Shown: piece after piece, positions 1,590 through 60,878 of the stretch
Layout of the letters: every line of letters begins with the position of its first letter
Position numbering within the stretch: the first letter of the stretch is position 1
Origin: Corynebacterium ciconiae DSM 44920
GTDB taxonomy: Bacteria > Actinomycetota > Actinomycetes > Mycobacteriales > Mycobacteriaceae
Length of the DNA stretch: 64,000 nucleotides
Assembly (NCBI RefSeq): GCF_030440575.1
Contig: NZ_CP047189.1
Coordinates: 124,001-188,000, forward strand
Reading direction: 5' to 3'
Program-made: the position numbers and the translations under genes
Notes under the pieces: generated by a model
The model's database searches: none
Told to the model about the DNA's origin: nothing
Seen by the model: only the letters and a program-made list of their open reading frames with translations

Positions 1590-2608
1590 AGTCCCAGCTC
1601 GCGCCACGCGGCGAGGAAGCGATCCATCTCCGCAGGGTTGGTCACGGTCACCCGCAGTCCCTCGGGGAAGGCGCGCACCAGCACGTCCTTATCTGCAAGT
1701 TTCGACGCCACCTCGAGGGCGTCTTCCCGCGGAATCCACACGAAGTTCGCCTCGGAGGGCACAGCCCCCAGCTCCTCTTGGAGGCGCTGGCGCTGCTCAA
1801 CCACCTCATCGGTGCGGTGCAGCAGCTCTTCGGACTCTGCCAGCGAGGCGCAGGCTGCGGCCTGGGCCACGGCGTTGACGCCGAAGGGGATGGCCACCTT
1901 ATTGAGGGCCTCGATGATGTTCGGCGCGCCGAAGGCATAACCGATGCGCATGCCGGCCAGGCCATAGGCCTTAGAGAAGGTACGAAGCGCAATGAGGTTG
2001 GGGTGGGCGTCGATAAGCATGTGCCCGATGGGGGTGTCCTCGGCGCGCATGTACTCGAAATACGCCTCATCGAGGGCCACGATCACATCGCGCGGCACAG
2101 CCTGCATGAACTCCTCAAACTCGGCGGCGGTGATGGTGGTGCCCGAAGGGTTATTGGGGTTGCACACGAAAATCAGGCGAGTGGACTCGGTGACCGCGGC
2201 GGCCATGGCGGGAAGATCAAGACGGTGCTGATCATCCAATGGCACCGGCACGCTGGTGGCGTTCGCGACCTGCGCGAAAATGGGATACGCCTCGAAAGAA
2301 CGCCACGGGAACACCACTTCCTCGCCACGGTCGCAGGCAATCTGCACCAGCTGCTGGCACAGTGCGGAGGATCCACAGCCCACCGCCACATGATCCACGG
2401 TGAGTCCAAGATGCTCCGCGATCTGCTCGCGAATATCCATCGCCGCCATGTCTGGATAGCGGTTCGCCTGGGAGACCACCTGCTCCATTGCGGCCTGAAC
2501 ACTCGGGAGGGGACCAAAGGCCACCTCGTTACTCGACAACTTAAGGGCACGCGGATTGCGCTTACCCGGAACATAGGCCGGCAAAGAAGCAAGATCAGGG
2601 CGAATCAT
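1586..2608 (-). CDS. pat: Aromatic amino acid / histidinol-phosphate-type aminotransferase
   Basis: PLP-dependent fold-type I aminotransferase of the HisC family, 340 residues. The start MIRPDLASLPAYVPG and the phrase KLSSNEV match the corynebacterial Pat group, which transaminates phenylpyruvate or prephenate in Phe/Tyr synthesis. The PLP-binding Lys is in TFSKAYGLAGMRIGYA. The region CNPNNPSG and the C-terminal Arg in LRVTVTNP are also as expected. The longer reading frame starts 28 codons upstream, but the ATG at 2608 gives the family-typical N-terminus. Upstream lie tRNA-Ser and tRNA-Arg on the other strand. With tyrA (20 kb) and pheA (63 kb) it supplies aromatic amino acid synthesis. A histidinol-phosphate role cannot be excluded from sequence alone. 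Confidence 0.9.
   Translation of the reverse strand: MIRPDLASLPAYVPGKRNPRALKLSSNEVAFGPLPSVQAAMEQVVSQANRYPDMAAMDIREQIAEHLGLTVDHVAVGCGSSALCQQLVQIACDRGEEVVFPWRSFEAYPIFAQVANATSVPVPLDDQHRLDLPAMAAAVTESTRLIFVCNPNNPSGTTITAAEFEEFMQAVPRDVIVALDEAYFEYMRAEDTPIGHMLIDAHPNLIALRTFSKAYGLAGMRIGYAFGAPNIIEALNKVAIPFGVNAVAQAAACASLAESEELLHRTDEVVEQRQRLQEELGAVPSEANFVWIPREDALEVASKLADKDVLVRAFPEGLRVTVTNPAEMDRFLAAWRELGL
2007..2018 (+). repeat. Dispersed motif GCGTCGATAAGC
   Basis: Exact copy of the window-wide 12-mer, inside pat. On the pat strand it encodes Leu-Ile-Asp-Ala. Confidence 0.8.
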
Positions 2609-2702
2609 GGTGCTTAACACTAGCACCCACCGCAGACACCCACGGTTTTTGCGCCCAGATGAATGATTGCTATTATTGCCAGAGCGCATCACGCATGCGC
2701 GT

Positions 2703-2791
2703 GGAGACGTGCCAGAGCGGCCGAATGGGGCTCACTGCTAATGAGTTGCTCTCTTAACGGAGGGCCGGAGGTTCAAATCCTCTCGTCTCCG
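2703..2791 (+). tRNA. tRNA-Ser (anticodon GCT)
   Basis: Class II tRNA of 89 bases. Acceptor strands GGAGACG (2703-2709) and CGTCTCC (2784-2790) pair. The anticodon loop CTGCTAA has GCT at 2737-2739. A long variable arm follows, then a T-arm with GGTTCAAATCC. CCA is not encoded. It decodes AGC/AGU serine codons. Confidence 0.96.
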
Positions 2792-2981: not shown

Positions 2982-2993
2982 GCGTCGATAAGC
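2982..2993 (+). repeat. Dispersed motif GCGTCGATAAGC
   Basis: Exact intergenic copy, preceded by GAGGTG, between the tRNA-Arg terminator and the surface-protein operon. Confidence 0.8.
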
Positions 2994-4103: not shown

Positions 4104-5722
4104 TTCACTCCCGTCTTTCCAGCCGAGCAGGCGCTGCTCATCGACGCCGCGCCGCAGCCGCCGCAGCCCTCGTGCTCGCGGCGGTACTTGGTGTCACAGG
4201 GTGCGCCACGCCCCCTGCCGGCTCTTCTGCCCACGGCGCAGGCGACTCCGCGGGCGAGAAGCCGCTGCGTGTCGCTGCGACCACTCCCATCATCGCGGAC
4301 ATGGTCTCGCAGGTGGCGGGGCCGCGCGTAGAGGTGACCCAGCTGATTCCGTCCTCGGCGGATCCGCACATCTTTGAGCCTCGGCTCAGTACTGTGCGCG
4401 CAGTCGCCAATGCTGACGTGGTGTTCAGTAACGGCCTGCTGCTCGAGGAGCAATCCATGCAGCGCACCCTCGAAGCACACCAGCACCCGGGCGCGCGGCA
4501 TGTTGTGCTCGGCGATAGCCTCACCACCGCCGGCGGCTATGTGCTGCCGCTGGTGGAACAGGCGAACCTCGACACCGTGTGGCTGGGCTTTCGGGTGGAA
4601 GGACGCAAAAAGGACGGCGCCAAGGTGCGCCTGCGGTTTATGGATACCGACGGCCCGGGCGATGTCGATGCCTTCATTACCGGTACCTTCGGCACCCCAG
4701 AGCGGCTGTTGAGCAGCCGCGATACTCGCCGCGAGGCGCTGCTACCGCAAAACGCTCACACCCATTTGAGCTGGGCGTTTAGCGCAGCTGGCTATTACAG
4801 CGTGCACATCGCCGCGGATTTGGTGGAAGAATCCACCGGCGAAGTGCTCGAGCCGCTCGCCGAGCAGGTGCTGCACTTTGCCGTAGGTGTTGCCCCCGAG
4901 CACTACCCGGCCGAGGACATCGAAGCCCCAGTCACCCTGCTCAACCAGGGACACCAGGACGTCACCGTGGATCTGCACAGCAACGCCATCACCCTCACCG
5001 GCGATAGCGAAGTCGATCCGGCCCACACCGTGATCGATGTGCCGCCCGCCACCTTGCAGCTGCTGCCCGCTGATCCGAGTTATCGCTTCCTCGGGCGCCC
5101 GCAGCAGGAGGTGTACATGCTGCACCAAGCGGTGTTGGGCAAACACATCCACGGCGATACCGACCCGCACGTGTGGCTGGATCCAAACAATGGGGTGGCC
5201 ATGACCAAGGTGATCGCCGAGGCACTCGCCGCCGCGGATCCGAGCGGGCGAGCCGAGTATCAGCGCCGGGCCGAGGCCTACGAGGCGCAGATCAGAGACA
5301 CCGCCACCGAGATGCAACGGGACATCGACCAGATTCCGGCTTCTCGACGCAAGCTGGTGACCACCCACGATGGCTACGGATATCTCGCCGAGGCCTTCGA
5401 GCTGGAGGTCGCGGGATTTGTCTCCCCCAACCCGGCGGTGCAGCCCTCCCCACGGGACCTGCGGGCGCTGCGCGAAACCCTGCGTGGGCTGAACGTGCCG
5501 GCCGTGTTTGTACAGCCCAACACCACCGCCCAAACCCAAGATTTGCTCTCTGCAGCCGATGACGAAGACGTGGAGGTATGCACCCTCTACGGCGACTCCT
5601 TCGGCCCAGACATCGACTCGTACCTGGACATGCTGCGCGCCAATGCGGCCAACATGCGCAGCTGTTTAGGCACAGATAACTCAACCCCTCACACACCAAC
5701 AGGAAAGGATCGCCGTGCGTGA
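4100..5722 (+). CDS. Substrate-binding lipoprotein with inserted choice-of-anchor M domain
   Basis: 540-residue lipoprotein: signal sequence with lipobox VTGC (Cys near residue 35). The ZnuA/TroA-type binding domain is split in two. Residues about 50-140 carry ATTPIIADMVSQVAG and DPHIFEPR. After about 190 intervening residues, DTDPHVWLDP, TTHDGYGYLAEAF and SPNPAVQPSPRDLRAL complete the fold. The insert has the same signatures as the neighbouring surface proteins (LGFRV, DGPGDVDAF, NAHTHLSWAFSAAGYYSVHI). This architecture is known for the 'anchored repeat-type ABC transporter, substrate-binding subunit' family (TIGR03772). His residues of the split domain suggest a divalent metal such as zinc or manganese. 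Translationally coupled to genes on both sides. Confidence 0.88.
   Translation: MIHSRLSSRAGAAHRRRAAAAAALVLAAVLGVTGCATPPAGSSAHGAGDSAGEKPLRVAATTPIIADMVSQVAGPRVEVTQLIPSSADPHIFEPRLSTVRAVANADVVFSNGLLLEEQSMQRTLEAHQHPGARHVVLGDSLTTAGGYVLPLVEQANLDTVWLGFRVEGRKKDGAKVRLRFMDTDGPGDVDAFITGTFGTPERLLSSRDTRREALLPQNAHTHLSWAFSAAGYYSVHIAADLVEESTGEVLEPLAEQVLHFAVGVAPEHYPAEDIEAPVTLLNQGHQDVTVDLHSNAITLTGDSEVDPAHTVIDVPPATLQLLPADPSYRFLGRPQQEVYMLHQAVLGKHIHGDTDPHVWLDPNNGVAMTKVIAEALAAADPSGRAEYQRRAEAYEAQIRDTATEMQRDIDQIPASRRKLVTTHDGYGYLAEAFELEVAGFVSPNPAVQPSPRDLRALRETLRGLNVPAVFVQPNTTAQTQDLLSAADDEDVEVCTLYGDSFGPDIDSYLDMLRANAANMRSCLGTDNSTPHTPTGKDRRA
5339..5350 (-). repeat. Dispersed motif GCGTCGAGAAGC
   Basis: Exact GCGTCGANAAGC copy inside the substrate-binding protein gene, where the coding strand reads Ala-Ser-Arg-Arg. 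Confidence 0.75.
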
Positions 5723-14436: not shown

Positions 14437-15306
14437 ATGTCAGAGCTTCGAATAGCTCGTGTGCTGAGCAATAACGCCGTGGTGGTGCGCGATGCCGAGG
14501 GCCCAGCCCACCAATCCAAAGTGATTGTGGGTAAAGGACTTGGCTTCGGCGCCTCTATCGGAGACATCATGTCCCGCGCCGAGGTCACCGCCGCAGAGAA
14601 TCGCCAAGAATATGTGGAGCTCACCGCGGAGCAGGAGGAAATCCTCACCAGCTTGGGGCGTATCGACGCCACCCAGCTGGCCGTTATCAGCGCCGCCATT
14701 GACTTGGCCGTGGATGTGCTGGGGGAATTACACCCCTCCATTTATGTGATTCTCACCGAGCATCTCTCAGCGGCAATTGAGCGCGTCGATCGTGGCGAGC
14801 TCATCGAAAATACCCTCGTCAACGAGATCAAAGCGGTATTCCCCGAGGCTTTCTCCGCCGCGGAAGTGGTGGTGCACTACCTCAACGCCAACCTCGACAC
14901 CCGAGATCTCCCACTGGACGAGGCCGCGTTTATCACCCTTCACCTCACTGCCGCCCGCACGGGTGACACCGTGAAGAAACCCCTGGCCACAGCCAATGCC
15001 ATATCTCGGGCGGAACAGCTCATTCACCGGCGGCTGGGCCATCTTCGGGCGGCTGAGGTGAGCGTCGATAAGCGCGATAATTCCGATGATTCCCTGCCCA
15101 TTAGGCTGCGTTATCTCCTCACGCGACTGCGGGAGCACAACTACCGCCATAATGCACTGGCCAGCACCATTGCTCGGCACTTGCCGGAGGAGTGGGAGCT
15201 AGCCGAAGACGTGATACGCGGCCTGCAGGGCGCAGAAACGTTGGATCCGGAACTGCGCGGAGAAATCGCATTTCTCGCGATATATCTGCACGGATACACG
15301 CACTAA
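14437..15306 (+). CDS. BglG/LicT-family transcriptional antiterminator
   Basis: 289-residue RNA-binding regulator. Residues 1-55 are the CAT RNA-binding domain (RVLSNNAVVV, VIVGKGLGFGA). Two PTS regulation domains follow, PRD1 about 65-170 (His in ILTEHLSAAIERV and FITLHLTAAR) and PRD2 about 175-285 (His in NALASTIARHL and AIYLHGYTH). Such proteins bind a RAT hairpin in the leader and prevent termination when the sugar is present, with activity set by PTS phosphorylation of PRD histidines. GGAGGTGA lies 7-8 bases before the ATG. It is 32 bases from the EIICB gene, which it probably controls together with itself. Confidence 0.93.
   Translation: MSELRIARVLSNNAVVVRDAEGPAHQSKVIVGKGLGFGASIGDIMSRAEVTAAENRQEYVELTAEQEEILTSLGRIDATQLAVISAAIDLAVDVLGELHPSIYVILTEHLSAAIERVDRGELIENTLVNEIKAVFPEAFSAAEVVVHYLNANLDTRDLPLDEAAFITLHLTAARTGDTVKKPLATANAISRAEQLIHRRLGHLRAAEVSVDKRDNSDDSLPIRLRYLLTRLREHNYRHNALASTIARHLPEEWELAEDVIRGLQGAETLDPELRGEIAFLAIYLHGYTH
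15062..15073 (+). repeat. Dispersed motif GCGTCGATAAGC
   Basis: Exact copy inside the antiterminator gene, read there as part of Ser-Val-Asp-Lys-Arg. Confidence 0.8.
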
Positions 15307-17658: not shown

Positions 17659-17983
17659 TGCGTATCTATGAACCAACCGCCGGCCCGAGTGCATACCGTG
17701 GCCACGGAACCCATCCAGATAGGGGTAGTGTTCTCAGGTTTTCCGGTGATTTCGGGCGAAAACACTCACAGTGATCACCCTAAGAACTACTCTAAAAAGG
17801 GTAAGCACTCCCTGCTACAGGAAGTGCTGCGCGGAAGCTGCCTTGGCAGCGGCCCCCGCCCCTGCCAGCAGGGGAAATGCCAGAAAAAGGGGGGCCGTAC
17901 ATCACCACAGAGAGCCCATGAGGTGTTGGCGAGCGGCTTCGCACCCGTTTTTCTTCACTCACACATGGAAAGCTGGTACCGCT

Positions 17984-19570
17984 GTGTCTACCCCAGTTAC
18001 TCACGAGTCGAGCTCCCACGCGCCGGCTGCCGACGCGGAGGCCCCCTCGGCCTCAGCGTGGCGTCGACAAGCCTTTGGACTCTTCTTGGGCGTCGTGCTC
18101 GCACTGATCGTCTACTACATCTTCCCGGAATCCGCGGCTGAGACCGTGAACAAGGCCTACCCAGACGCCGAGGATCCCTACACCTATCAGGCACTCCGCA
18201 CCACAGCCGCAGGCGCGGTGCTCATGGGCGCCTGGTGGATGACAGAAGCCATCCCGCTCGCTGCCACCGCCCTCGTGCCGCTGGCACTCTTCCCCTTGGC
18301 GCAGCTGGTGGACTTCGGAGACATCTCCGGCCAATACGGCAACCCCACCATCTTCCTGTTCATGGGCGGATTCATCCTGGCGCTCGGCATGCAACGCTGG
18401 AACCTGCACCGGCGTCTCGCGCTCAGCGTGGTGATGCTCGTGGGCACCAAGCCCAAGCAGCTCATCGCCGGCTTCATGATTGCCACAGGCTTTTTGTCCA
18501 TGTGGGTCTCCAACACCGCCACCGCCGTGGTGATGCTGCCCATCGGTGTTTCCGTGCTCGCGCTCACCGCTGAGCAGATCGGTGGATTTGAGAAGCAGAA
18601 GAAGTTCGCCACCGCGCTCATGCTCGCCATCGCCTACTCGGCCTCCATCGGCTCGCTCGGCACCATCATCGGCACCCCGCCCAACGCCCTGCTGGTCGGC
18701 TACATGTCCGACAACCACGACGTGCACATTGGCTTTGGTCAGTGGATGCTGGTGGGCGTGCCGCTCGCGGCGGTGTTCCTCGCCATCGCGTGGTTCGTGC
18801 TGGTCACCGTGTTCAAACCCGAGGTGAAAGACATCCCCGGCGGCCGCGACCTGATCCGCAATGAGATCAAAGCAATGGGCCCGATGAGCCGCGGCGAAAT
18901 CTACGTGGGCCTGATCTTCCTACTCACCGCGCTGAGCTGGATCTTCATCCCGATCATCATCCGCATCAGCGGCTCGGCGCTCAACATTGCCGACGCCGCC
19001 ATCGGCATGACCGCAGCGCTCCTGCTGTTCATTCTCCCCGCCGATGCCAAGACCGGTGTGCGGCTTATTGACTGGGACACCGCCAAGGAACTCCCCTGGG
19101 ACGTGCTGCTGCTCTTCGGTGGCGGCTTGGCGCTGTCCAAGATGTTCTCCGTCTCCGGACTCTCGCTGTGGATCGGTGAGCTCGCCCGAGACCTCAACGC
19201 CCTGCCCACCATCCTGTTCATCTTCGTCATCGCCGCGGTGGTGCTCATCCTCACCGAGTTCACCTCCAACACCGCCACCGCCGCAGCCTTCTTGCCCATC
19301 CTGGGTGGTGTGGCCGTAGGTATCGGCCTGACCACGATCGGTGGCGAGGAAAACGTGCTCCTGCTCACCATCCCCGTGGCTCTCGCCGCCACCTGCGCCT
19401 TCATGTTGCCGGTGGCCACGCCGCCCAACGCCATCGCCTTCGGTTCTGGCTATGTGCGCATCGGCGAGATGGTCAAGGGCGGTATCGGGCTGAACATCGT
19501 CGGCCTCTTCCTCATCACCGCCACCGTCTACCTCCTCGCGGTGCCTGTGTTCGGCCTCGTGCTGCCCTAG
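17984..19570 (+). CDS. dccT: Dicarboxylate:Na+ symporter (DASS/SLC13 family)
   Basis: 528-residue membrane carrier with about 12 helices, for C4-dicarboxylates (succinate, fumarate, malate). It has the two repeated SNT motifs of the family: WVSNTATAVVMLPIG and EFTSNTATAAAFLPI, and the PPNALLVG and PPNAIAFGSG segments. Corynebacterial DccT belongs here. The frame is open from 17771, but the first 71 codons look non-coding; I prefer the GTG at 17984 (STPVTHESSSH...), with GGAAAG at 17967-17972. This start is uncertain. It lies directly before the second tRNA-Arg. Confidence 0.88.
   Translation: MSTPVTHESSSHAPAADAEAPSASAWRRQAFGLFLGVVLALIVYYIFPESAAETVNKAYPDAEDPYTYQALRTTAAGAVLMGAWWMTEAIPLAATALVPLALFPLAQLVDFGDISGQYGNPTIFLFMGGFILALGMQRWNLHRRLALSVVMLVGTKPKQLIAGFMIATGFLSMWVSNTATAVVMLPIGVSVLALTAEQIGGFEKQKKFATALMLAIAYSASIGSLGTIIGTPPNALLVGYMSDNHDVHIGFGQWMLVGVPLAAVFLAIAWFVLVTVFKPEVKDIPGGRDLIRNEIKAMGPMSRGEIYVGLIFLLTALSWIFIPIIIRISGSALNIADAAIGMTAALLLFILPADAKTGVRLIDWDTAKELPWDVLLLFGGGLALSKMFSVSGLSLWIGELARDLNALPTILFIFVIAAVVLILTEFTSNTATAAAFLPILGGVAVGIGLTTIGGEENVLLLTIPVALAATCAFMLPVATPPNAIAFGSGYVRIGEMVKGGIGLNIVGLFLITATVYLLAVPVFGLVLP
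18061..18072 (+). repeat. Dispersed motif GCGTCGACAAGC
   Basis: Exact GCGTCGANAAGC copy inside dccT, preceded by GTG and read there as Trp-Arg-Arg-Gln-Ala. Confidence 0.75.
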
Positions 19571-28098: not shown

Positions 28099-28692
28099 TT
28101 ATAGCCCGAGGTTGGAAATGACTTCCTCTGCGATCGACTCGGGCTTAATGGTTTGTTCCTGATCGCTGAACACCACCACGCTGGTGGCACCCTTGGCCAC
28201 CGCGTACACGGAGTAGCCCGGCAGCCCAGACTCATCGAGGCTGCCGCGCCCGCCCTGAAAACCGGCGGGCTGGTCGGCGGGTTCGGTGGAGCCCACCGGT
28301 GCGGCCCAATCCACCACCTGGCGTGCGATCGCCTCGTCCTCGTTGTACCGCACGCTCACCATCACCTGCGGGTTATCCCCATAGGACCAAAACACGCAGG
28401 CGGGCGGATCAAAGCGTGTGTCCACGCCCTGATCGATCACGCGCTGGCCGTTGGTGTTGGCCACGAACTGGGTGTCCAGATAGGGGCACACCTCGTTGGC
28501 GCCGCGCGCCACCTCCGGGAGGGTATCCACCGGCAGCCCAGGCTGCGCATCGCTTATCGACGCCTCCTCGCTGCCCTCATCCGCCCCGCCAAAGCCCAGT
28601 GATGCGGTCGAGGAATCGCTGCAGCCGGCCAGGCCAAGGGCGAGGGCGGTGCCAAGAATAAGCGGGAGGCGGCTAGGGTGGCGAAAGGTCAC
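28099..28692 (-). CDS. Lipoprotein, DUF2020-like
   Basis: 197-residue predicted lipoprotein: lipobox LGLAGC, Cys near residue 24, then an acidic Ser-rich linker and a globular domain with two Cys (NEVCPYLD, PPACVFWSYG) likely forming a disulfide. It resembles the corynebacterial DUF2020 family, which has no known function. GTG start at 28692; the short ATG frame 10 bases upstream ends at once. Convergent with the sortase pair, stops 3 bases apart. Confidence 0.78.
   Translation of the reverse strand: MTFRHPSRLPLILGTALALGLAGCSDSSTASLGFGGADEGSEEASISDAQPGLPVDTLPEVARGANEVCPYLDTQFVANTNGQRVIDQGVDTRFDPPACVFWSYGDNPQVMVSVRYNEDEAIARQVVDWAAPVGSTEPADQPAGFQGGRGSLDESGLPGYSVYAVAKGATSVVVFSDQEQTIKPESIAEEVISNLGL
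28552..28563 (-). repeat. Dispersed motif GCGTCGATAAGC
   Basis: Exact copy inside the DUF2020-like gene, read in frame as Ala-Ser-Ile-Ser. Confidence 0.8.
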
Positions 28693-30256: not shown

Positions 30257-30268
30257 GCGTCGATAAGC
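30257..30268 (+). repeat. Dispersed motif GCGTCGATAAGC
   Basis: Exact intergenic copy, preceded by GGGGTG, nine bases beyond the stop of the nitrite reductase-like gene. Confidence 0.8.
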
Positions 30269-32961: not shown

Positions 32962-34218
32962 CTAGGGGCGTCGAGAAGCGCTCAAGAGCGCGAGACCGAT
33001 GCCCAGGGTGATCGTGCTGACTGCCGCCAATCCCAGAATCAGCCCAGTCCAGTGGGTGGCATCAAAGAGCAGGCCCGAGAGCCAGCCGAATACCGAGGAG
33101 CCCAGGTAATAGCAGGCCACATACATGCTCGAGGCCTCGGCGCGGTTGTCGGTGGCGGTGCGGCCCACCCATGCGGAGGCGGTGGAGTGAACAATGAAGA
33201 AGGCTGCGGTAAACACCAGCATCGCGGCGATGAGCACCCCCAGCTGCGGCGCCAAGCACACCACGAGCGCCAGGAGGGAGGCGCCGGCGCCGAACACCAG
33301 CGTGATGCCGGGGCCATATTTACTGCTCCACACCCCGGCCCGCGCCGAGGACCACGTGCCCGCGAGATACAGAATGAACACCACACCCACGAGGGCTTCG
33401 CTTAAGCCGAAATCGTGAATGAGCACAAAGCCCACATAGTTATAGAGCGAAACAAACACGCCCATGGCCAAACCGGCAATAAGGAACAGGCCCGCGAGGC
33501 GGGGGTTTTTCCAGTGTGCTGCCATGGCCTCCAGCTCGTTGCCGAGGCGCAGCTGCTTGGGCTGGAAGCGTCGCTGCGTGGGCAGGGCAATGATCGCAAT
33601 CGCCGCGCAGATCCCCGCGAAGAGCAGATTGGCCCCGAGCGCCCACCGCCACGTGGACAGCTCTAGCACGCCGGCAGGAATGAGGCGACCAGACAACCCG
33701 CCGAGCGAGGTGCCGGCGATATAGACGCCCATCGCCTTTGCCAGCGCGGCGGGGGCGAGCTCCTCCGAGAGTAGCGTCATGGCCACTGCGGGAACCCCTG
33801 CGATCATCGCGCCCTGAATGCCGCGGCCGAGGATCAGCCACGTCGCACTCGGAGAAAAGGGAAGCAGCAGGCCGATGAGGATGCTCGCGATCAATGAGAC
33901 TGTCATGATTCGCCCTCGGCCGAAACGCTCCGAGAGGATCGAGGCCGGCACCACGCACAGCGCCAGCGCCCCAGTTGCTGCCGAGACCGTGAGCGCGCTG
34001 ATCGTGGGGGTGATGTCGAAGGCGGTGGTCAGCCGCGGCAGCATCGCCTGGGTGCAGTAGAGCGTGTTGAAGGCCGCAAGGCCCGCCGCGAGAGTGGCGG
34101 TGAGAGCGCGGCGATAATCGGGGTCGTTGCGCTCGAGGCCGGGTGGTAGCGCGGCTGCGGTTGAGGGGGCGGCGGCCGGGGTGGCGTCTGCGGGGCGGGT
34201 GCGGGGTGTGGCGGACAT
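32962..34218 (-). CDS. MFS transporter, YnfM-like
   Basis: 418-residue major facilitator with 12 helices. Features: FNTLYCTQAMLPRL in TM1, LSERFGRGRIM (signature loop), GRGIQGAMIAGVPAVAMTLLSEE. The pairing with a divergent LysR regulator (34311) resembles the ynfM/ynfL arrangement. Probably a drug/metabolite exporter; substrate unknown. Start at 34218 chosen; the open frame upstream runs into the shared promoter. The last codons overlap a copy of the dispersed repeat motif. Confidence 0.87.
   Translation of the reverse strand: MSATPRTRPADATPAAAPSTAAALPPGLERNDPDYRRALTATLAAGLAAFNTLYCTQAMLPRLTTAFDITPTISALTVSAATGALALCVVPASILSERFGRGRIMTVSLIASILIGLLLPFSPSATWLILGRGIQGAMIAGVPAVAMTLLSEELAPAALAKAMGVYIAGTSLGGLSGRLIPAGVLELSTWRWALGANLLFAGICAAIAIIALPTQRRFQPKQLRLGNELEAMAAHWKNPRLAGLFLIAGLAMGVFVSLYNYVGFVLIHDFGLSEALVGVVFILYLAGTWSSARAGVWSSKYGPGITLVFGAGASLLALVVCLAPQLGVLIAAMLVFTAAFFIVHSTASAWVGRTATDNRAEASSMYVACYYLGSSVFGWLSGLLFDATHWTGLILGLAAVSTITLGIGLALLSASRRP
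32968..32979 (+). repeat. Dispersed motif GCGTCGAGAAGC
   Basis: Exact GCGTCGANAAGC copy in the last codons of the MFS gene, read there as Ala-Ser-Arg-Arg before the terminal Pro. Confidence 0.75.
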
Positions 34219-36488: not shown

Positions 36489-37202
36489 CTAGCTCACCTT
36501 CACCGTCATCCCAATGGAGGCCCAATCCTCCGGCCCCACCGAATGGCCCGTCGAGTCCGGCCCCAGCAACGCCGGCTCCACGCACACGAAACGGCGCCAA
36601 TCGCCGGGCTGGAGATCCCCGATGTTCTCATCGGCGGCCTCGCCCGGATTCCACACCACCACATGATCGGTGCCCTGGGAGGTGATGGTGAGGGTGCGGG
36701 AGCGGTCGCTAATAGTGAAGGGGGAGTACTCCTCGGCGGCGACGCGCTCGTCGGTGGGGGTGGCGTCGAAAAGCCAGGTGCGGCCTGCGCCCTCCACGCG
36801 CGTATCGGTCACATCCTCGACCAAAAAATAGGGGTGAAACGCCAGCTGAATGGGGCGGCGATACTCGGTGAGGTTGTGCGCGCGCAGCATCAACGCGAAA
36901 CCCTGCTGCGTATGCTGCGCCGAGAAGCGCAGATCCCAGCCGTCGTGGCTGCAGCGCGCGTCGATACCGCCGGTAGTGTCCTGCACCTCCCACGGGATGC
37001 GCCGCGCCCAACCATGCTGCAGCTCATCGTGGCCCAGATCCTGAGCGAACCACGGCGCAATCACCGGCACCCCGCCACGAATCGAACTATTCTCGCTAAA
37101 ATCCGCCAGCGTGGACATAAACAGCAGCTCACCGCTACTATGCCGCGCGGACTCAAGATGGCCGCGCCCCGCCGGCATGGACAGACTCGTCTGATGACTC
37201 AT
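36489..37202 (-). CDS. Aldose 1-epimerase-like hexose-6-phosphate mutarotase
   Basis: 237 residues of the galactose mutarotase-like fold. Catalytic residues appear as His in LAFHPYFLVEDV and Glu in FVCVEPALL; the RGGVPVIAPWF motif is typical of the D-hexose-6-phosphate branch, which equilibrates anomers of glucose-6-phosphate. Shorter than the usual 270-290, mainly in the N-terminal strands. ATG 37202. Convergent with asd and divergent from the next gene. Confidence 0.85.
   Translation of the reverse strand: MSHQTSLSMPAGRGHLESARHSSGELLFMSTLADFSENSSIRGGVPVIAPWFAQDLGHDELQHGWARRIPWEVQDTTGGIDARCSHDGWDLRFSAQHTQQGFALMLRAHNLTEYRRPIQLAFHPYFLVEDVTDTRVEGAGRTWLFDATPTDERVAAEEYSPFTISDRSRTLTITSQGTDHVVVWNPGEAADENIGDLQPGDWRRFVCVEPALLGPDSTGHSVGPEDWASIGMTVKVS
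36763..36774 (+). repeat. Dispersed motif GCGTCGAAAAGC
   Basis: The only copy with A at the free position, inside the mutarotase gene (Leu-Phe-Asp-Ala on its strand); preceded by GGGGGTG. Confidence 0.7.
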
Positions 37203-37238: not shown

Positions 37239-37250
37239 GCTTATCGACGC
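37239..37250 (-). repeat. Dispersed motif GCGTCGATAAGC
   Basis: Exact intergenic copy between the divergent mutarotase and ketopantoate reductase-like genes; read on the minus strand it is preceded by GAGGGTG. Confidence 0.8.
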
Positions 37251-38228: not shown

Positions 38229-38251
38229 GCGCACAGGTAGACTTGCCTACC

Positions 38252-40504
38252 GTGGCTCTCTATCGCAAGTACCGTCCCGCGTCCTTCGCAGAAGTTGTCG
38301 GCCAGGAGCACGTCACCCAACCCTTGTCGGTGGCGCTGGACTCCGGCCGCATCAACCATGCCTACTTGTTCTCGGGGCCGCGGGGCTGCGGTAAAACCTC
38401 CTCGGCGCGCATCATGGCGCGCTCCCTCAACTGCGTCAATGGCCCCACCTCCACCCCGTGTGGGGTGTGCCCCTCGTGCGTGTCCCTAGCCCCAGGCGGG
38501 CCCGGCAACCTCGACGTCACCGAGCTCGACGCCGCCAGCCACCGCGGCGTGGATGATATGCGTGAACTGCGCGATCGCGCCTACTACGCACCAGCGGAAT
38601 CCCGCTACCGGGTGTTCATCATCGACGAGGCCCACATGATCACCACAGAGGGCTCGAACGCGCTGCTGAAGATCGTGGAAGAACCCCCAGAGCACCTCAT
38701 CTTCATCTTCGCCACCACCGAGCCGGAGAAGGTGATCAACACCATCCGCTCGCGCACCCACCACTATCCTTTCCGTCTACTCACTCCCATGGCGATGCGC
38801 GGGCTCCTCGAGCGCACCGTAGAGGCCGAGCAGGCGCAGGTCGACGATGCCGTGTACCCACTGGTGATCCGTTCCGGTGGTGGCTCCCCGCGTGATTCGC
38901 TGTCCATCCTGGACCAGCTACTCGCCGGCGCCGGCCCGGATGGGCTCAGTTATGAGCAGGCTGTGGCGCTGCTCGGGGTGACCAATGATTCGCTTCTCGA
39001 CGCCGCCGTCGAGGCACTCGCAAGCGAAGATTATGCGGCGATGTTCGCCACGGTGGACGACGTGATTGAAGGCGGCTTTGAGCCCCGTCAGTTTGCCCTC
39101 GACCTGCTCAATCGCCTGCGGGACCTCATGGTGGTGCGCACCGTGCACGACGCCATGAACCACGGGCTGGTGGATGTGCCCTCTGGCAGAGAAGCGGTCC
39201 TAAGCGAACAGGCGGCGCGCTTCAGCCCCGATCAGCTTGCCCGCATGGCCGCGCTTACCAACGATGGCCTCAGCGATATGCGCGGAGCTACCTCCGCTCG
39301 GCTGCTGCTCGAGGTGATGTGTGCCAAGCTCATGCTGCCCACCGCTGCCGCCGGCAGCATCAGCGGCGCCGAGAGTGTGGCTGCCGCAGCCCCAGCGAGC
39401 CCTGCTGCGCCTGCGCGGGGCGGCAGCTCGGACAGTGAGGAGAAAAAGCCAGCGCGCCGCTTTGAGCGCAAGTCCGTGCGCGAGCAGCGAGAGCGCGAAC
39501 AGCGCGAACGGGAGGAGCGCGAGCGGCAGCAACGGCAGCAGGAGCGCGAGCGGCAGCAACGGCAGCAGGAGCGCGAGCGGCAGGCTGAGTCCCCGCGGAC
39601 CGAATCCCCACAGGAGGTGGCCCAATCCGAGGCCCCGCAGGCCCAGCCTGCCGCGGAGTCTGCGGCGGAGCCGGAGCGGGAGGAGGCCGGGGAGGAGGCG
39701 TCGACAAGCGTTGTAGAACACCAGCAGAGCATCGTCGAGCAGTGGCCGGAGATTCGCCGCGCGATCTTTGAGGCCAATGCCCGCACTGGCGTGATGATTG
39801 CCGAGGCGCGGGTGCTGGAGGAAACCCCCGAGGCGCTCACCCTCGGCCACCACACTGGGGCGCTCGCGACACGGCTGTCCGCGCCGGAGCATGCCGAGGT
39901 GATCGCCCAGGCAATCACCCAGGTCACCGGCGCGCAGGTGACGGTCAGCTGCGTGATCGGCACCCGCGTGCCCGCGCGCACAGCAGCGAGCGAAAACACT
40001 GCGGACGCCGACACCGAGGAAGAAGAACCCGCCCGCCCCGAGCCGCGCGCCCCCGGCGGCTGGGTAGCCCCGCAGCTACCGCCCGAGCCCGGCACCACCG
40101 CCCCGGTACGCGAACCCGAACCAGAGAAGAAGCCCGAGCCGCCGCGGCGACGCTGGCAGGAACGCGCAGCGCGCGGTAACCCCTATGCCCGGCCTGGTCA
40201 GCAGCCCCCACCGCCCGAGCCGGAGGAGCCCAGCGACTACAGCGGCCGCGATCCCTATGCGGGGATGGCGGATTCCGTGCCGCTGCCACCCGAACCCGAG
40301 CCGGACGACGCCGCCCCCGAGCACGAGGCACCCCCGAGCATGCCGACGCCCACCCCGGGCCCGCCGGTGGAGGAAAGCGAGGAGGATGTGGAGGAGTCCT
40401 TCGCCCGCGAAGCCGCCGAGGGCGAAGGCAGCGCCGATCGGCGTGACCAGCGCACTGTGGCCATCGAGCTGCTGCAGGAGCAGCTGGGAGCGAAGCTGGT
40501 ATAA
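38252..40504 (+). CDS. dnaX: DNA polymerase III gamma/tau subunit
   Basis: 750-residue clamp-loader ATPase. MALYRKYRPASFAEVVGQ at the GTG start, Walker A GPRGCGKTSSAR, zinc module C-x8-C-x2-C around residues 63-80 (LNCVNGPTSTPCGVCPSCV), Walker B IIDEAHM, sensor ATTEPEKV. Domain III ends near residue 370. A low-complexity Arg/Glu/Gln linker (about 400-450, with a 27-base tandem repeat) leads to a tau-like module (WPEIRRAIFEAN..) and a Pro/Glu-rich tail. Codons 398-399 are AAA AAG with a -1 frame stop at 39463-39465, a possible gamma-producing frameshift. Starts 23 bases after the previous stop. Confidence 0.95.
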   Translation: MALYRKYRPASFAEVVGQEHVTQPLSVALDSGRINHAYLFSGPRGCGKTSSARIMARSLNCVNGPTSTPCGVCPSCVSLAPGGPGNLDVTELDAASHRGVDDMRELRDRAYYAPAESRYRVFIIDEAHMITTEGSNALLKIVEEPPEHLIFIFATTEPEKVINTIRSRTHHYPFRLLTPMAMRGLLERTVEAEQAQVDDAVYPLVIRSGGGSPRDSLSILDQLLAGAGPDGLSYEQAVALLGVTNDSLLDAAVEALASEDYAAMFATVDDVIEGGFEPRQFALDLLNRLRDLMVVRTVHDAMNHGLVDVPSGREAVLSEQAARFSPDQLARMAALTNDGLSDMRGATSARLLLEVMCAKLMLPTAAAGSISGAESVAAAAPASPAAPARGGSSDSEEKKPARRFERKSVREQREREQREREERERQQRQQERERQQRQQERERQAESPRTESPQEVAQSEAPQAQPAAESAAEPEREEAGEEASTSVVEHQQSIVEQWPEIRRAIFEANARTGVMIAEARVLEETPEALTLGHHTGALATRLSAPEHAEVIAQAITQVTGAQVTVSCVIGTRVPARTAASENTADADTEEEEPARPEPRAPGGWVAPQLPPEPGTTAPVREPEPEKKPEPPRRRWQERAARGNPYARPGQQPPPPEPEEPSDYSGRDPYAGMADSVPLPPEPEPDDAAPEHEAPPSMPTPTPGPPVEESEEDVEESFAREAAEGEGSADRRDQRTVAIELLQEQLGAKLV
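38992..39003 (-). repeat. Dispersed motif GCGTCGAGAAGC
   Basis: Exact GCGTCGANAAGC copy in dnaX, where the coding strand reads Leu-Leu-Asp-Ala. Confidence 0.75.
39440..39465 (+). promoter_or_regulatory. Candidate -1 frameshift site in dnaX
   Basis: GAG AAA AAG (39440-39448) offers the AAA-AAG slippery pair used in E. coli dnaX. In the -1 frame five codons follow and then TGA at 39463-39465, which would yield a 404-residue gamma-like product ending right after domain III. The base before the pair is G rather than A, which should weaken slippage, and I see no convincing Shine-Dalgarno-like stimulator. Confidence 0.35.
39521..39574 (+). repeat. 27-bp in-frame tandem repeat in dnaX linker
   Basis: Two identical 27-base units (39521-39547 and 39548-39574) encode Glu-Arg-Gln-Gln-Arg-Gln-Gln-Glu-Arg twice, part of a charged flexible linker. 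Such repeats vary in copy number between strains. Confidence 0.85.
39698..39709 (+). repeat. Dispersed motif GCGTCGACAAGC
   Basis: Second copy within dnaX, on the other strand to the first, read as Ala-Ser-Thr-Ser. Confidence 0.75.
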
Positions 40505-41766: not shown

Positions 41767-42519
41767 CTAGCCTTCGAGGCGCTCCTCGCGCAGCTGCGAG
41801 ACCTCATCGAGCACCAAGGGCTCGAGATCAGTGAACTCCACGCCCATCGCCCGAGCAAGCAGGAGATCCGCGATGTGCGGATTGCGGGCCAAAAACGGCC
41901 CATGCATATAGGTGGCAATCACGGTGCCCTGGATGGCACCGTCACAGCCGGCCCCGTGGCCGGAATCAGTGTTGCCGATACCGCGGGAAATCGAGCACAG
42001 CGGCTGAGCATCCGGGCCGAGCACCGTGGAGCCCATGTGGTTTTCAAAGCCACTCAGGCTCAGGCTCGAGGTGCCGCTAATGCGCAGAGCATCCGAGATC
42101 TGCTCGGTGAGGACCGCGGAGGGGGTGGCCTCCACCTCGCCGATGGCCCGCTTCTGCAGTTGCGAGGTGGTGGCGTCGATAAGCCCCAAGCCCTCGTGGA
42201 CCCCGCCGGAGGCGTGGAAGGACTCGCCCAGCACCTGGAAACCAGCGCAGATGCTCAAAATCGGCGTTTTCTTCTCCGCGGCGCGGGTGAGACCACCTTG
42301 GGAGCGTAGGTGCTCCGCCGCCAGAATCTGAGCGGCATCCTCGCCGCCGCCGATGCAATAAAGGTCGCAAGAATCCGGGATGGCGTCCTGCAAGGTGATG
42401 CGGGTGACCTCGGCGTCGATGCCACGGAGGCGGGCGCGCTGGCGCAGCACGAGGGCATTGCCATCATCGCCATAGGTGCCCAACACATCCGGTAGCAGCA
42501 GTCCGATAGTGAGAGTCAT
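41767..42519 (-). CDS. gatD: Lipid II isoglutaminyl synthase, amidotransferase subunit
   Basis: 250-residue class I glutamine amidotransferase of the CobB/CobQ type. Nucleophile Cys in SICAGFQVLG (about residue 94), oxyanion region IGGGEDAAQ, and catalytic His in ATYMHGPFLARNP. It frees ammonia from glutamine and delivers it to MurT for amidation of the D-Glu in peptidoglycan stem peptides. The start codon directly follows the murT stop, as expected for a complex. Was formerly annotated as a cobyric acid synthase-like protein in corynebacteria. Confidence 0.94.
   Translation of the reverse strand: MTLTIGLLLPDVLGTYGDDGNALVLRQRARLRGIDAEVTRITLQDAIPDSCDLYCIGGGEDAAQILAAEHLRSQGGLTRAAEKKTPILSICAGFQVLGESFHASGGVHEGLGLIDATTSQLQKRAIGEVEATPSAVLTEQISDALRISGTSSLSLSGFENHMGSTVLGPDAQPLCSISRGIGNTDSGHGAGCDGAIQGTVIATYMHGPFLARNPHIADLLLARAMGVEFTDLEPLVLDEVSQLREERLEG
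42173..42184 (+). repeat. Dispersed motif GCGTCGATAAGC
   Basis: Exact copy inside gatD, read on the gatD strand as Leu-Ile-Asp-Ala; preceded by GTGGTG. Confidence 0.8.
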
Positions 42520-43872: not shown

Positions 43873-44934
43873 CTAGCTGTTGTGTGGGTGCTCGGCGGCG
43901 GCCGCCGTGGCGCGGGCGAGTTCGACAAACGCGGTATCGGCCATGAGGGGAATGTTTTTGCGCTGCGCGTGCATCGCCTTGCCCTTGAGGTCACGGGTGT
44001 GGTTGCAAATGACCAGCGAGGACCCGCGGCCCAGCTTCTCGCTGTAGCTTAGCCCCGCATCCAGGGCGGCCTGAATGATCTCGGTATCCGGCAGCTCGAT
44101 CTGAGGGGTGAGCACCACCTCCATGCCAGGTTCGAGGGCCCCGCCTGGCTGGTAGGCGCCGGGATTATCCGCAGTGGGGGCGGTGTGGGCGGCATCCACG
44201 CGCAAGACGGTGCGCTGCAGGCCGCAGCGATCCGCCTTCAACTCCTCGGTCTGGTAGCTCACCGGATCGCTCAGAGCAGCGTAAAGATCCCACGTCAGCT
44301 GGGTGGATTCGAAGGAAAACTCGGCCTCAGGGATCTGTGCGCGCTCCGGCGTTGCGTGGGGGGAGGCGTCGGAAAGCCCCCACTGGCGGGTCACGCCGCG
44401 CAGCCGCTCATCCTCGATCGTGGCGCCAGTGCGGCGCACGGTGGTGAGAACATCGATGATCGCCACCGGCTTGGGCACATGGCCAAAGTTGGAGCGGTTG
44501 CGCTTGCCGCCGCGTCGGCGCCGCTGCTTCGGGGCCTGGGCGCGCCGGTTATGCGCGATCGCCCGCTTCGACTCCGAAACAATGAACCCCCACGTCAACG
44601 CCATATCGAAGGTGATCAGAGTGCGGCCGTCGATCATACGGCAGATACTCTTGGCCACCGCGGCAAACGTCGGCGCGGCAGCCACCTCCTCTTTGCTCAG
44701 CCCGTGCAGATGCGGCGGGCCGGGATCGGCCTTGGGATTAAGCACGTGATGCACGTGCTCGTCGAGCTCGCCCGTGGGCGTGAACGTAGCCAGATCGATG
44801 GCCACCATCCGCGCCGAGCTGGGGTGAATGCCGGAAGTGTGCACCGTGGCAACCACATAGGGGGCCCGCTCGAGCTCGGCTTGTCGACGCGCCCTGCGCT
44901 CCTCGCGGGAAAGATGATGGTTACCGGTACTCAT
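43873..44934 (-). CDS. DnaQ/epsilon-like protein with degenerate exonuclease and BRCT-like end
   Basis: 353 residues in the position where corynebacteria carry a gene annotated as polymerase III epsilon. The fold is recognisable, yet exonuclease motif I (D-x-E) reads VATVHTSGIHP, motif II reads LITFDMALTWGF, and motif III is also altered; the catalytic acids appear lost. A basic stretch AQAPKQRRRRGGKRNR interrupts the middle. The C-terminal 90 residues (DAGLSYSEKLGRGSSLVICN, DLKGKAMHAQRKNIPLM) look like a BRCT domain. It is probably a structural or regulatory DNA-repair protein rather than a proofreader. Confidence 0.75.
   Translation of the reverse strand: MSTGNHHLSREERRARRQAELERAPYVVATVHTSGIHPSSARMVAIDLATFTPTGELDEHVHHVLNPKADPGPPHLHGLSKEEVAAAPTFAAVAKSICRMIDGRTLITFDMALTWGFIVSESKRAIAHNRRAQAPKQRRRRGGKRNRSNFGHVPKPVAIIDVLTTVRRTGATIEDERLRGVTRQWGLSDASPHATPERAQIPEAEFSFESTQLTWDLYAALSDPVSYQTEELKADRCGLQRTVLRVDAAHTAPTADNPGAYQPGGALEPGMEVVLTPQIELPDTEIIQAALDAGLSYSEKLGRGSSLVICNHTRDLKGKAMHAQRKNIPLMADTAFVELARATAAAAEHPHNS
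44879..44890 (-). repeat. Dispersed motif GCGTCGACAAGC
   Basis: Exact GCGTCGANAAGC copy in the dnaQ-like gene, read as Arg-Arg-Gln-Ala. Confidence 0.75.
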
Positions 44935-48792: not shown

Positions 48793-48804
48793 GCTTATCG
48801 ACGC
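48793..48804 (-). repeat. Dispersed motif GCGTCGATAAGC
   Basis: Exact intergenic copy 14 bases beyond the stop of the DMT permease gene. Confidence 0.8.
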
Positions 48805-59389: not shown

Positions 59390-59504
59390 TGGGCCCCTCC
59401 TTTCTGTGTGAACGCGTGGCGCACACACTAGAGCAGGAAGGGCCCAGCCGACTAGCGGGGGCTGTGCATAACCTAGCTAGCGCGGAAGGTTATGCACAGA
59501 AAAG

Positions 59505-60878
59505 CTAGCGAAGGGAGCTGAAGAGTTGCTCAGCTTCGGTTTCATCCCATAGCACCACGGAGCCCACATCCACGTTGTCCATGCCACCGACTGGCACCAC
59601 CTCGGTGTTAAAGCCGCCGAGCATGTGCAGCGCCGCCCACATCAAATGCCAAGTGTGGTCGCCGGAGTCCACCGTGAGCGATCCCGCGACGCCGTTAACC
59701 AGTGGGAAAGACCGGAAAGGGTTGAGGAAGGTAGTCGGGGAGGCCACCTTCTTGGCGAGGGCGGTGAGGAACTGTCGCTGACGAGCCGCGCGGTCAATAT
59801 CTCCCTGCGCGGTGGAGCGGGTGCGCACAAAGCTCAAGGCTTGGGCGCCATTGAATTCTTGGCAACCGGCCTCGAGGTGGAAGTTGATGACATCGTCGTG
59901 GATGGGTTCGTCCACGCAGAGATCCACCCCGCCAACGGCGTCGACTGCGTTGGCAAAGCCGCCGAAGCCGACCTCGGCGTAGTGGTCGATCTTGAGTCCC
60001 GTGCTCTGTTCGACGGTCTCGATGAGCAAAGGTGGGCCGCCGAAGGAGAAGGCGGCGTTGATCTTGTCCATGCCGTAGCCGGGAATCGGCACATAGCTAT
60101 CGCGCGGGATAGACAGCAGCGTGGGCTTGCCGAAGGTGGGCACGTGCAGCACCATGATCGTGTCTGTGCGGTTGCCTCCCACATCACCACCGGTCATGAG
60201 CTCGTGGTTTTGCTCAGGGCTAAGCCCTTCGCGGGAATCCGAGCCCACCAGCAGCCAATTCGAGCCACGCGTGTTGGAGATCTGCTGGGCTGGCATCGCG
60301 TCTACTCGTTCGAATTTGGTGTCGGCCCACAGCATGCCCACTACCGCGATGGTGACGATGATCGCCACAGCCCAGCGGAACATGGAGAAACAGCCCATGC
60401 GTGGCAAGCGCAGAGCCCGCCACGGGGCACGACGCCGCGGCGCGGCCGCCGGGCGTGGTGGGGCAGCTGCATGCTGCCTCGGCGAATACTGGCCGTGCTG
60501 ACCCGGCTGCTGCACAGGGGCGTAATACTGGCGGGGGCGCTGCTGCGACGAGCGGGCCGCCTCGGGGTGCTCGCGGTAATAGGCCCGCCGCTGCTCTTCA
60601 TAGCTGGGCTGGCGGTGCCGGGCAGGTGTGTCGCTGTCACGCCGGTGCCGCTGCGGCCGCTGGGGTTCACGGGGAGATTCATGACGGGGTTCGCGACGCG
60701 GCTCACGCCGGGGTTCCCGGCGAGGTTCGCGCCGGGGTTGCGGCTCACGAGGGGGGTGAGGTTCGCGTCGAGAAGCGGGAGAGCCCCCCGACCGGGGCGG
60801 CTGAGGGCGCCGCCTCACGGGGCGGCCGTAGCGATCGCGCAGAATGCGGCCGTCTTTGTCTCTCGCGAAATCGTCCAT
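59505..60878 (-). CDS. lcpB: LytR-CpsA-Psr family glycopolymer ligase
   Basis: 457 residues. The N-terminal 150 are cytoplasmic, Arg/Pro/Glu-rich with REPR repeats (about 45-75). One transmembrane helix (about 168-186) leads to the extracellular LCP domain (about 205-455): LLVGSDSREGL, RTDTIMVLHV, LLSIPRDSYVPIPG, DKINAAFSFGG, and FVRTRSTAQGDIDRAARQRQ. LCP enzymes attach arabinogalactan to peptidoglycan. The neighbourhood (pheA, CPBP protease) matches lcpB rather than lcpA of C. glutamicum. Confidence 0.9.
   Translation of the reverse strand: MDDFARDKDGRILRDRYGRPVRRRPQPPRSGGSPASRREPHPPREPQPRREPRREPRREPRREPRHESPREPQRPQRHRRDSDTPARHRQPSYEEQRRAYYREHPEAARSSQQRPRQYYAPVQQPGQHGQYSPRQHAAAPPRPAAAPRRRAPWRALRLPRMGCFSMFRWAVAIIVTIAVVGMLWADTKFERVDAMPAQQISNTRGSNWLLVGSDSREGLSPEQNHELMTGGDVGGNRTDTIMVLHVPTFGKPTLLSIPRDSYVPIPGYGMDKINAAFSFGGPPLLIETVEQSTGLKIDHYAEVGFGGFANAVDAVGGVDLCVDEPIHDDVINFHLEAGCQEFNGAQALSFVRTRSTAQGDIDRAARQRQFLTALAKKVASPTTFLNPFRSFPLVNGVAGSLTVDSGDHTWHLMWAALHMLGGFNTEVVPVGGMDNVDVGSVVLWDETEAEQLFSSLR
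60765..60776 (+). repeat. Dispersed motif GCGTCGAGAAGC
   Basis: Exact GCGTCGANAAGC copy inside lcpB, Ala-Ser-Arg-Arg on its strand. Confidence 0.75.

Follow-up and report, generated by a model that had tools for sequence, protein, structure and literature searches.

A dispersed DNA motif with species-specific spellings in Corynebacterium, a putative DNA uptake sequence

The 64-kb window analyzed here (64,000 nucleotides of Corynebacterium ciconiae DSM 44920, taken at full length) carries many copies of a 12-base motif, both within and between genes. The first-pass annotation had claimed 16 exact copies, and their coordinates, strands, and bases at the free position (N) were all reproduced. 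None of 100 dinucleotide shuffles reached this count (mean, 0.07; largest, 1). Near matches named at 14658, 54620, and 62122 are also present, and with at most one mismatch allowed, the window holds 29 matches versus 2.0 expected. The base composition assumed earlier, 60% GC, is slightly below the measured 63.2%. According to crude gene calls extended to the longest start, 12 of the 16 copies lie inside reading frames, and the remaining four (2982, 30257, 37239, and 48793) fall between genes. The earlier proposal had put at least four between genes or at a gene's end. The copies at 18061 and 60765 are probably inside genes, although a first crude gene call placed both between genes. The copies, and one example of the sequence preceding them, are as follows.

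2007..2018, + strand: copy 1, N=T, antisense within an aminotransferase gene (1586-2692, −)
2982..2993, + strand: copy 2, N=T, intergenic by gene calls, with GAGGTG upstream
5339..5350, − strand: copy 3, N=G, antisense within a ZnuA-family gene (4100-5722, +)
15062..15073, + strand: copy 4, N=T, sense within a CAT_RBD/PRD antiterminator gene (14437-15306, +)
18061..18072, + strand: copy 5, N=C; provided the longest start is correct, inside the 5′ portion of a frame of the sodium:sulfate symporter family (17771-19570, +)
28552..28563, − strand: copy 6, N=T, sense within frame 28099-28692 (−)
30257..30268, + strand: copy 7, N=T, intergenic, past the 3′ end of a gene of the multicopper oxidase family (30278-32932, −)
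32968..32979, + strand: copy 8, N=G, antisense to the final codons of an MFS transporter gene (32962-34320, −)
36738..36762, + strand: one instance of the G-rich 25 nt, lying 5′ of the copy 9 core
36763..36774, + strand: copy 9, N=A, antisense within an aldose epimerase-family gene (36489-37202, −)
37239..37250, − strand: copy 10, N=T, intergenic, between divergent genes
38992..39003, − strand: copy 11, N=G, antisense within a DNA polymerase III gamma/tau-type gene (38243-40504, +)
39698..39709, + strand: copy 12, N=C, sense within the same gamma/tau-type gene (38243-40504, +)
42173..42184, + strand: copy 13, N=T, antisense within frame 41767-42519 (−)
44879..44890, − strand: copy 14, N=C, sense within frame 43873-44934 (−), which has no Pfam match
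48793..48804, − strand: copy 15, N=T, intergenic
60765..60776, + strand: copy 16, N=G, antisense within a LytR_cpsA_psr gene (59505-60878, −), if the longest start is right

The full site is longer than 12 bases and consists of a G-rich 5′ tract of ∼25 nt, with GAGGTG at its end, followed by GCGTCGANAAGC(G). The remark that many copies are preceded by GGTG was correct: positions −4 to −1 are GGTG-like in a 79-copy sample (G, 80%; G, 58%; T, 42%; G, 73%), in which the 25-nt stretch 5′ of the core is G-rich on average. Among the 30 copies first called intergenic, this flank is strand asymmetric (50% G and 17% C over 25 nt), and the flanking consensus is sharper among copies called intergenic. 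The information in the site is spread over about 12 + 14 bases, and the motif is among the top k-mers found de novo in a genome sample.

A recurrent sequence in genes might merely reflect codon usage or a protein motif that recurs, and 29 of the 49 genic copies in a 464-kb sample do fall in one antisense frame, read as LIDA. However, all six frames are used by these 49 copies, bearing out the varying frames described for the window, and 200 synonymous-codon shuffles yielded a mean of 1.3 coding copies (maximum, 5) versus the 49 observed. Given also the sharper flank consensus in copies called intergenic, this origin is extremely improbable, and it was rejected for the sampled genome on the basis of frame use and synonymous shuffles. 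Non-coding DNA makes up 13% of the sample yet holds 25 of the 79 copies, a count revised from 30 in the first crude gene call. The codon-preserving control, the use of all six frames, and the non-coding excess thus indicate a DNA-level cause, either selection or biased transfer, and it is in this form that the earlier claim of selection on DNA and not on protein survives. Genic copies are predominantly antisense (33 antisense and 16 sense in the 464-kb sample). Neither gene-terminus bias nor hairpin-type pairs of copies were found, the closest neighbors being 291 bp apart in the 464-kb sample and 66 bp apart within 0 to 892 kb. A role as terminator was rejected, as just three neighboring pairs in the sample are less than 600 bp apart and 3 of the 30 copies first called intergenic lie between convergent genes.

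The excess is not confined to the window, and the observation is both real and larger than claimed. The whole genome contains 496 exact copies versus 7 for a reversed-pattern control, a count far from chance that amounts to one exact copy in every 5.2 kb on average. The copies are distributed over both strands (233 + and 263 −). With the dnaA frame at base 1 and the GC skew turning near 1.3 to 1.4 Mb, the stretch from 0 to 892 kb, in the right replichore, contains 87 + and 100 − copies (P = 0.38). This lack of strand polarity within a replichore disfavors a segregation signal or polar translocase signal, which had been among the candidates offered; another of them, a DNA uptake sequence, fits best, as a putative assignment. 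The spacing of the 187 copies between 0 and 892 kb of this one genome is unusually even, with a coefficient of variation of 0.77 versus 0.99 under a uniform random null, and 0 of 5,000 simulations were as even. In 50-kb bins, the variance/mean ratio of copy counts is 0.33. No exact copies occur in a 61-kb stretch of G000 with a prophage, where about 11.7 would be expected at the genome mean, or in three corynephages (129.5 kb), in which the looser pattern has 4 matches and its control 1.

Of 242 Corynebacterium genomes scanned with the looser pattern GNCRTCGNNAAGC, 182 are clearly positive, 15 are intermediate, and 45 are at or near background. In 140 genomes from 30 related genera, the pattern was at most about 3-fold above control. 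A short motif is scattered in hundreds of copies through most sampled Corynebacterium species, with species-specific spellings. At least 16 of the 182 positive genomes have 15 or fewer exact copies and yet at least 200 of the general pattern, which suggests that their dialect is a different one, such as GCATCGGCAAGC. Among ten positive genomes surveyed for dialects, GCATCGGCAAGC and its relatives were found in G001, G004, G024, G096, and G106, GTCGGC/GTCGTC forms in G005, and GCGTCGATAAGC in G000, G013, G214, and G224. The core common to the dialects, C-TCG-AAGC, is in part fixed by the search pattern. On a 65-taxon tree, the distribution corresponds to about ten gains or losses of the motif. 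No convincing replacement motif was found in the motif-poor genomes G007, G011, G018, G029, G042, G131, and G232. Weak matches to TGGCGTCG in G007 and to GGGGCGTCGA in G018 were noted and may be relics, so that G007 may not be a true negative. Position weight matrix runs from weak seeds (G005, G007, G011, and G018) gave few or composition-driven sites and were excluded. The first-pass annotation knew of no described corynebacterial element of this form; likewise, searches of an open-access library turned up no report of the motif.

The best reading of these observations, which we consider about evenly balanced between right and wrong, is that the motif may be a DNA uptake sequence for a transformation machine composed of a Tad pilus, ComEA, and ComEC. 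The motif would then be a tag by which DNA of the cell's own kind is recognized during natural transformation. A receptor at the cell surface, on the Tad (type IV-like) pilus or close to it, would bind double-stranded DNA containing the G-rich tract and CRTCGNNAAGC, with Flp, TadE, and TadF as possible candidates; the pilus would draw the bound DNA across the mycomembrane and wall, ComEA would receive it, ComEC would move one strand inward, and DprA and RecA would recombine the incoming strand. Under such biased uptake, tagged alleles would displace untagged ones, so that copies would build up evenly at sites able to accommodate them, diverge into species dialects along with the receptor, and decay after uptake, or its specificity, is lost. 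Natural transformation in Corynebacterium, the receptor, and the part played by the motif are all inferred, and the open-access library yielded no account of natural transformation in this genus.

Several features are consistent with a DNA uptake sequence: the abundance, the DNA-level origin, the even spacing, the absence of polarity, the dialects, the absence of the exact form from the prophage stretch and three phages, and the presence of the machinery. Passages in the uptake literature describe the uptake signal sequences (USS) of Haemophilus influenzae as highly abundant and "relatively even" in arrangement (PMC7811141), and report a spacing of the neisserial DNA uptake sequence (DUS) that matches the size of conversion fragments (PMC2397512), and dialects of the DUS in the Neisseriaceae (PMC3630211). 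The dominant genic orientation also supports this reading, one orientation being reported as commoner in genes in a passage on uptake sequences (PMC2346458). On the other side, the density is below that of the Haemophilus USS, given as about 1 per 1 kb in one passage (PMC7811141). It is close to the density of Escherichia coli Chi, and the G-rich flank and the lack of terminus bias and hairpin pairs also count against an uptake sequence.

The evidence from the machinery is mixed. The source genome has open frames for its own comEA, comEC, and dprA and for a tad cluster. Across the 242 genomes, matches were found for ComEC in 241, DprA in 242, T2SSE (TadA) in 239, and T2SSF in 233; because they are nearly universal, ComEC, DprA, and TadA fail to distinguish motif-positive from motif-negative genomes, which counts against an uptake role. 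The ComEC, T2SSE, T2SSF, and DprA families also gave matches in a C. glutamicum control genome. ComEA was present in 64 of the 66 comEC loci examined and was not found in G057, where the contig ends, and in the motif-positive G022, where tblastn found no ComEA beside ComEC. A strong T2SSF pair, defined by our own cut as two matches with E ≤ 1e-7, supports the uptake reading through its association with the motif, being present in 159/182 positive and 10/45 negative genomes (Fisher test, 4.5e-17, not corrected for descent). One or two clades account for most of this correlation. Against it stand six motif-negative genomes of the 65-taxon tree that keep a strong pair (G131, G207, G042, G193, G127, and G165) and 23/182 positives without one. 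Five positives lack any T2SSF match (G156, G168, G171, G189, and G198); three of these are incomplete assemblies, and in G171, TadA is at a contig edge. Every tad gene is present in six tad loci of negative genomes, picked for their listed T2SSF matches, and iterated profiles detected TadE/TadF in G206, G011, and G042. Weak DprA matches (E above 1e-40) occur only in G029, G112, and G162, all motif negative; ComEC has an in-frame stop in the motif-negative G123 and is split in two pieces in the motif-positive G014, G090, and G229. Machinery loss was not found to be a clean cause of motif loss in these genomes, and complete motif loss with intact machinery requires a further cause, such as receptor loss.

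Three other readings accept the DNA-level origin. Even placement in this genome, occurrence on both strands, and the excess in non-coding DNA would suit a chromosome-organizing site, recognized by an abundant nucleoid or division-control protein and spaced for architecture. The absence of replichore polarity means that such a site is not KOPS-like (polarity from origin to terminus was rejected), and 45 of 242 genomes at or near background, about ten gains or losses, and dialects that differ between relatives fit an essential architectural role poorly; we consider this reading unlikely. A Chi-like signal, for which we would allow somewhat less again, would be read on a single strand by a resection enzyme, such as a helicase-nuclease of the AdnAB type. 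The enzyme would then load RecA instead of degrading DNA, and the strand that RecA coats first would be the G-rich 5′ tract. Its density resembles that of Escherichia coli Chi, about one per 5 kb, and the flank is strand asymmetric. PDDEXK nuclease genes were found in 80/80 genomes examined, and among the matches listed, many are in frames of 1,000 to 1,200 amino acids, which we take to be the size expected for AdnAB. However, the family occurs in every genome examined, whether motif negative (45) or motif positive (35), mycobacterial AdnAB is regarded as Chi independent, polarity relative to replication is absent, and the informative site is longer than Chi sites (5 to 8 nt). A RecBCD Chi was rejected, as the RecC domain occurs in 0/242 genomes. 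Finally, the absence of the exact form from the prophage stretch and the phages, together with the TCGA within the motif, a possible methylation target, could point to a self-marking site for a defense or modification system, acting by methylation or by discrimination of self from invader, with no role in uptake. A target over-represented across most of a genus is unusual for modification systems, and we regard self-marking as improbable.

If the motif is an uptake sequence, it would represent a third, independently evolved system and the first in Actinobacteria, with most Corynebacterium species transformable through kin-selective Tad-pilus uptake, with dialects and repeated losses. We put forward this broader proposal tentatively, at slightly under even confidence. 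Sequence-specific uptake has been described for Neisseria and Pasteurellaceae and was called unique to them in a 2013 passage (PMC3630211); uptake tags would instead belong to double-membrane bacteria generally, beyond two proteobacterial families. Natural transformation would be predicted in a genus with commensals, industrial strains, and pathogens, the motif would bear on gene flow among species with a common dialect, and tag-free regions would be a simple marker of foreign DNA. Even without a role in uptake, a dialect-forming motif that is abundant in 182 of 242 species, is evenly spaced in the one genome tested, and has been lost or gained repeatedly calls for a reader protein, which can now be looked for.

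Among known systems, the DUS, read in Neisseriaceae by the minor pilin ComP, is likewise a short non-palindromic tag with hundreds to thousands of copies on both strands, genic and intergenic, with lineage dialects around a conserved core, an atypical distribution in mobile DNA, and a host with a type IV-type pilus, ComEA, ComEC, and DprA. The Corynebacterium motif differs in being of unrelated sequence and phylum, less dense, and extended 5′ by a G-rich tract, with no hairpin-type inverted pairs seen, a Tad-type pilus, and an uptake role that is putative. The Pasteurellaceae USS shares a core with an extended, compositionally biased flank, a relatively even distribution, and an orientation that is commoner in reading frames. 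Its flank is AT-rich, whereas that of the corynebacterial motif is G-rich and 5′, and the corynebacterial copies, again with a putative uptake role, lack gene-terminus bias and hairpin-type pairs. Chi of E. coli RecBCD is similar in density, about one per 5 kb, and in its G-rich strand; the corynebacterial motif is longer, lacks replication orientation bias, and occurs in genomes without RecC. KOPS, the FtsK-orienting sequences, are also dispersed over the chromosome but point toward the terminus, a polarity that this motif does not have. Cyanobacterial HIP1, an abundant, dispersed 8-bp palindrome of unsettled function, is comparable in abundance, dispersal, and lineage specificity, whereas the corynebacterial motif is directional and has a flank.

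A first-pass annotation had reported 16 exact copies of the motif, a 12-base pattern of 11 fixed bases and one free position, in the window. All 16 were recovered at exactly the reported places, compared with a mean of 0.07 in dinucleotide shuffles of the window (0/100 reached 16), and allowing one mismatch gave 29 matches versus 2.0 expected. On both strands of the complete chromosome (2,584,365 bases, with the window at 124001 to 188000), 233 forward and 263 reverse exact copies were counted, versus 3 and 4 for a reversed-pattern control. Sampling 464 kb, made up of the window and 20 further 20-kb stretches distributed across the chromosome, gave 79 copies, which were assigned by our own, crude gene calls: 49 lie inside called genes, and when genes are extended to the longest start, 25 fall in the 13.1% of the DNA left between genes (p = 1.6e-5). 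Against these 49 genic copies, 200 synonymous-codon shuffles averaged 1.3 and never exceeded 5, which supports the earlier proposal that selection acts on DNA, not protein, in the sense of a DNA-level cause (selection or biased transfer); the genic copies use all six frames, with 29/49 in one antisense frame.

The site is longer than the core. Among the 30 copies placed between genes by the initial calls (some few possibly genic), the 25 nt 5′ of the core are G-rich on the motif strand (G 50%, C 17%), ending in GAGGTG (G at −6, 70%; A at −5, 60%; G at −4, 86%; G at −3, 70%; T at −2, 63%; G at −1, 90%). The tract is also present in a 52% G+C genome (G214). There is no comparable signal 3′ of the core except G at +12 (54% of the 79 copies), and the free position is T in 49% and C in 24% of that sample.

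Of 242 Corynebacterium genomes, 237 contain one or more exact copies of the motif (range over all 242, 0 to 869). Dialects emerged when words were counted de novo in genomes with few or middling numbers of copies, namely GCATCGGCAAGC/GCATCGACAAGC in G001 and CGTCGGCAAGC and CGTCGTCAA in G005, and further sampling added ATCG-type dialects in G004, G024, G096, and G106. Cross-species counts used the general pattern GNCRTCGNNAAGC, which dialects differing at its fixed letters would escape. With class cuts chosen by eye from the distribution, 182 of the 242 genomes were rich in it (at least 150 matches, range 188 to 1604; here, positives), 15 had 63 to 149, and 45 had at most 62, a few of the last still 3- to 4-fold above their own control (e.g., G021 and G127). 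In at least 16 of the 182 positives, the exact form occurs no more than 15 times. Outside the genus, the 140 genomes analysed (30 genera of the same family) were near their own controls (maximum, ∼3.1-fold, in G338 and G356). Named genomes of Rhodococcus, Nocardia, Mycolicibacterium, Dietzia, and Gordonia were likewise near control and so, within Corynebacterium, was one of C. urealyticum. On a 65-taxon, single-locus tree (five proteins around comEC; taxa with a listed comEC place), the positive state switches ∼10 times, versus 21 with shuffled labels; thus, the motif tracks descent, yet has been repeatedly lost or gained.

A replacement motif was sought in seven poor genomes (100 to 140 kb each), and none was convincing. 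Motif-poor G007 (L030 to L034) and G018 (L040 to L044) show a mild excess of TGGCGTCG or GGGGCGTCGA, with the AAGC half missing, suggesting a relic or degenerate dialect. Motif-poor G131 (L236 to L240, L073, L086) has strong gapped words CCGCG-N2-CGCG and GTGCG-N2-GAGA, possibly CRISPR repeats. In G232 (L246 to L250, L189), GGCAC-N3-TTAG and CCCAA-N3-TGCA are in excess (each 13 versus 0.3) and are perhaps one repeat family.

Exact copies are absent from ∼924.5 to 985.7 kb of the C. ciconiae chromosome, a gap annotated at 960 to 980 kb only. That motif-free stretch (L008, C1:960001-980000), chosen on a regular grid after the genome-wide copy list was known, is a prophage, with terminase, portal, head protease, major head/capsid, tail, and tape measure genes; the tape measure protein (1975 aa) is nearest to those of Corynebacterium phages Dina and SamW (∼45% identity over 66%). 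The prophage has a GC skew of 0.15. Corynephages Dina, CL31, and IME1320_01 (129.5 kb together) contain no exact copy, and their four matches to the general pattern (control, 1) are not clearly in excess; their hosts may use other dialects.

By eye, the chromosome opens with a DnaA-like frame at base 1, after which come DnaN-, RecF-, and GyrB-like frames, and the GC skew changes sign at ∼1.3 to 1.4 Mb. Within one replichore (0 to 892 kb), 87 copies are on the plus and 100 on the minus strand (p = 0.38). These 187 copies are more evenly spaced than uniform random positions, the only null used for this single genome (CV, 0.77 versus 0.99; 0/5000 random sets as even), with 20 gaps no longer than 1 kb versus 35 expected. 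A chromosome-organising site is one alternative reading of the motif, which we consider unlikely, and a Chi-like signal appears less probable still. RecC was found in none of the 242 genomes, and PDDEXK nuclease genes, including the AdnAB type, were present in 80/80 genomes examined, positives and negatives alike. Other DNA-marking roles, or unforeseen ones, take up the remaining share.

A putative DNA uptake sequence is the reading to which we give an even chance, based on genome comparison. ComEC (241), DprA (242), T2SSE (TadA; 239), and T2SSF (TadB/TadC; 233) are nearly universal among the 242 genomes. C. ciconiae carries open comEA-comEC and a tad cluster, with Pfam support for TadA, TadB, TadC, ComEA, and ComEC and a sub-threshold Tad match for TadF; Pfam searches of TadZ and TadE gave no match, and TadZ, TadE, and TadF are presumed from gene order and resemblance. 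A strong T2SSF pair (two matches at E ≤ 1e-7, our own cut) occurs in 159/182 positives versus 10/45 negatives, an association mostly due to one clade with weak T2SSF matches plus G112 and G029. Six negatives in the tree keep the pair (G131, G207, G042, G193, G127, and G165), 23 positives lack it, including five without any T2SSF match, and all six tad loci read from negatives, each picked from listed hits, were complete. DprA matches are weak in motif-negative G029 (E = 2e-16), G112 (1e-37), and G162 (1e-29; a 50-contig assembly), versus ∼1e-56 to 1e-65 elsewhere in the genus (2e-52 in one fragmented assembly). The ComEC frame of motif-poor G123 (L089, C1:543012-543797) has one in-frame TGA as sequenced; ComEC is split in two in three positives (G014, G090, and G229), and the search next to ComEC in positive G022 gave no ComEA. 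Among these machinery genes, none was found whose loss accounts for motif loss.

The first-pass annotation knew of no described corynebacterial element of this form, and likewise no report of the motif or of Corynebacterium uptake tags was found in a mostly open-access literature (few subscription journals, no bioRxiv); the nearest paper, on spaced motifs in prokaryotic genomes, names Corynebacterium in its available portions only with CRISPR-related pairs (PMC5217627). Taken together, the strong over-representation on both strands, even spacing, dialects built on a conserved core, favoured orientation in reading frames, scarcity in phage DNA, recurrent loss, and the presence of a pilus with ComEA/ComEC/DprA make up the genomic signature of uptake sequences (PMC3630211, PMC2397512, PMC7811141, PMC2346458, and PMC7371117). 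DNA uptake via Tad-type pili is reported in Liberibacter (PMC8513845), and work on the actinobacterium Micrococcus luteus counts tadA genes and comEA among the competence genes (PMC6667448).
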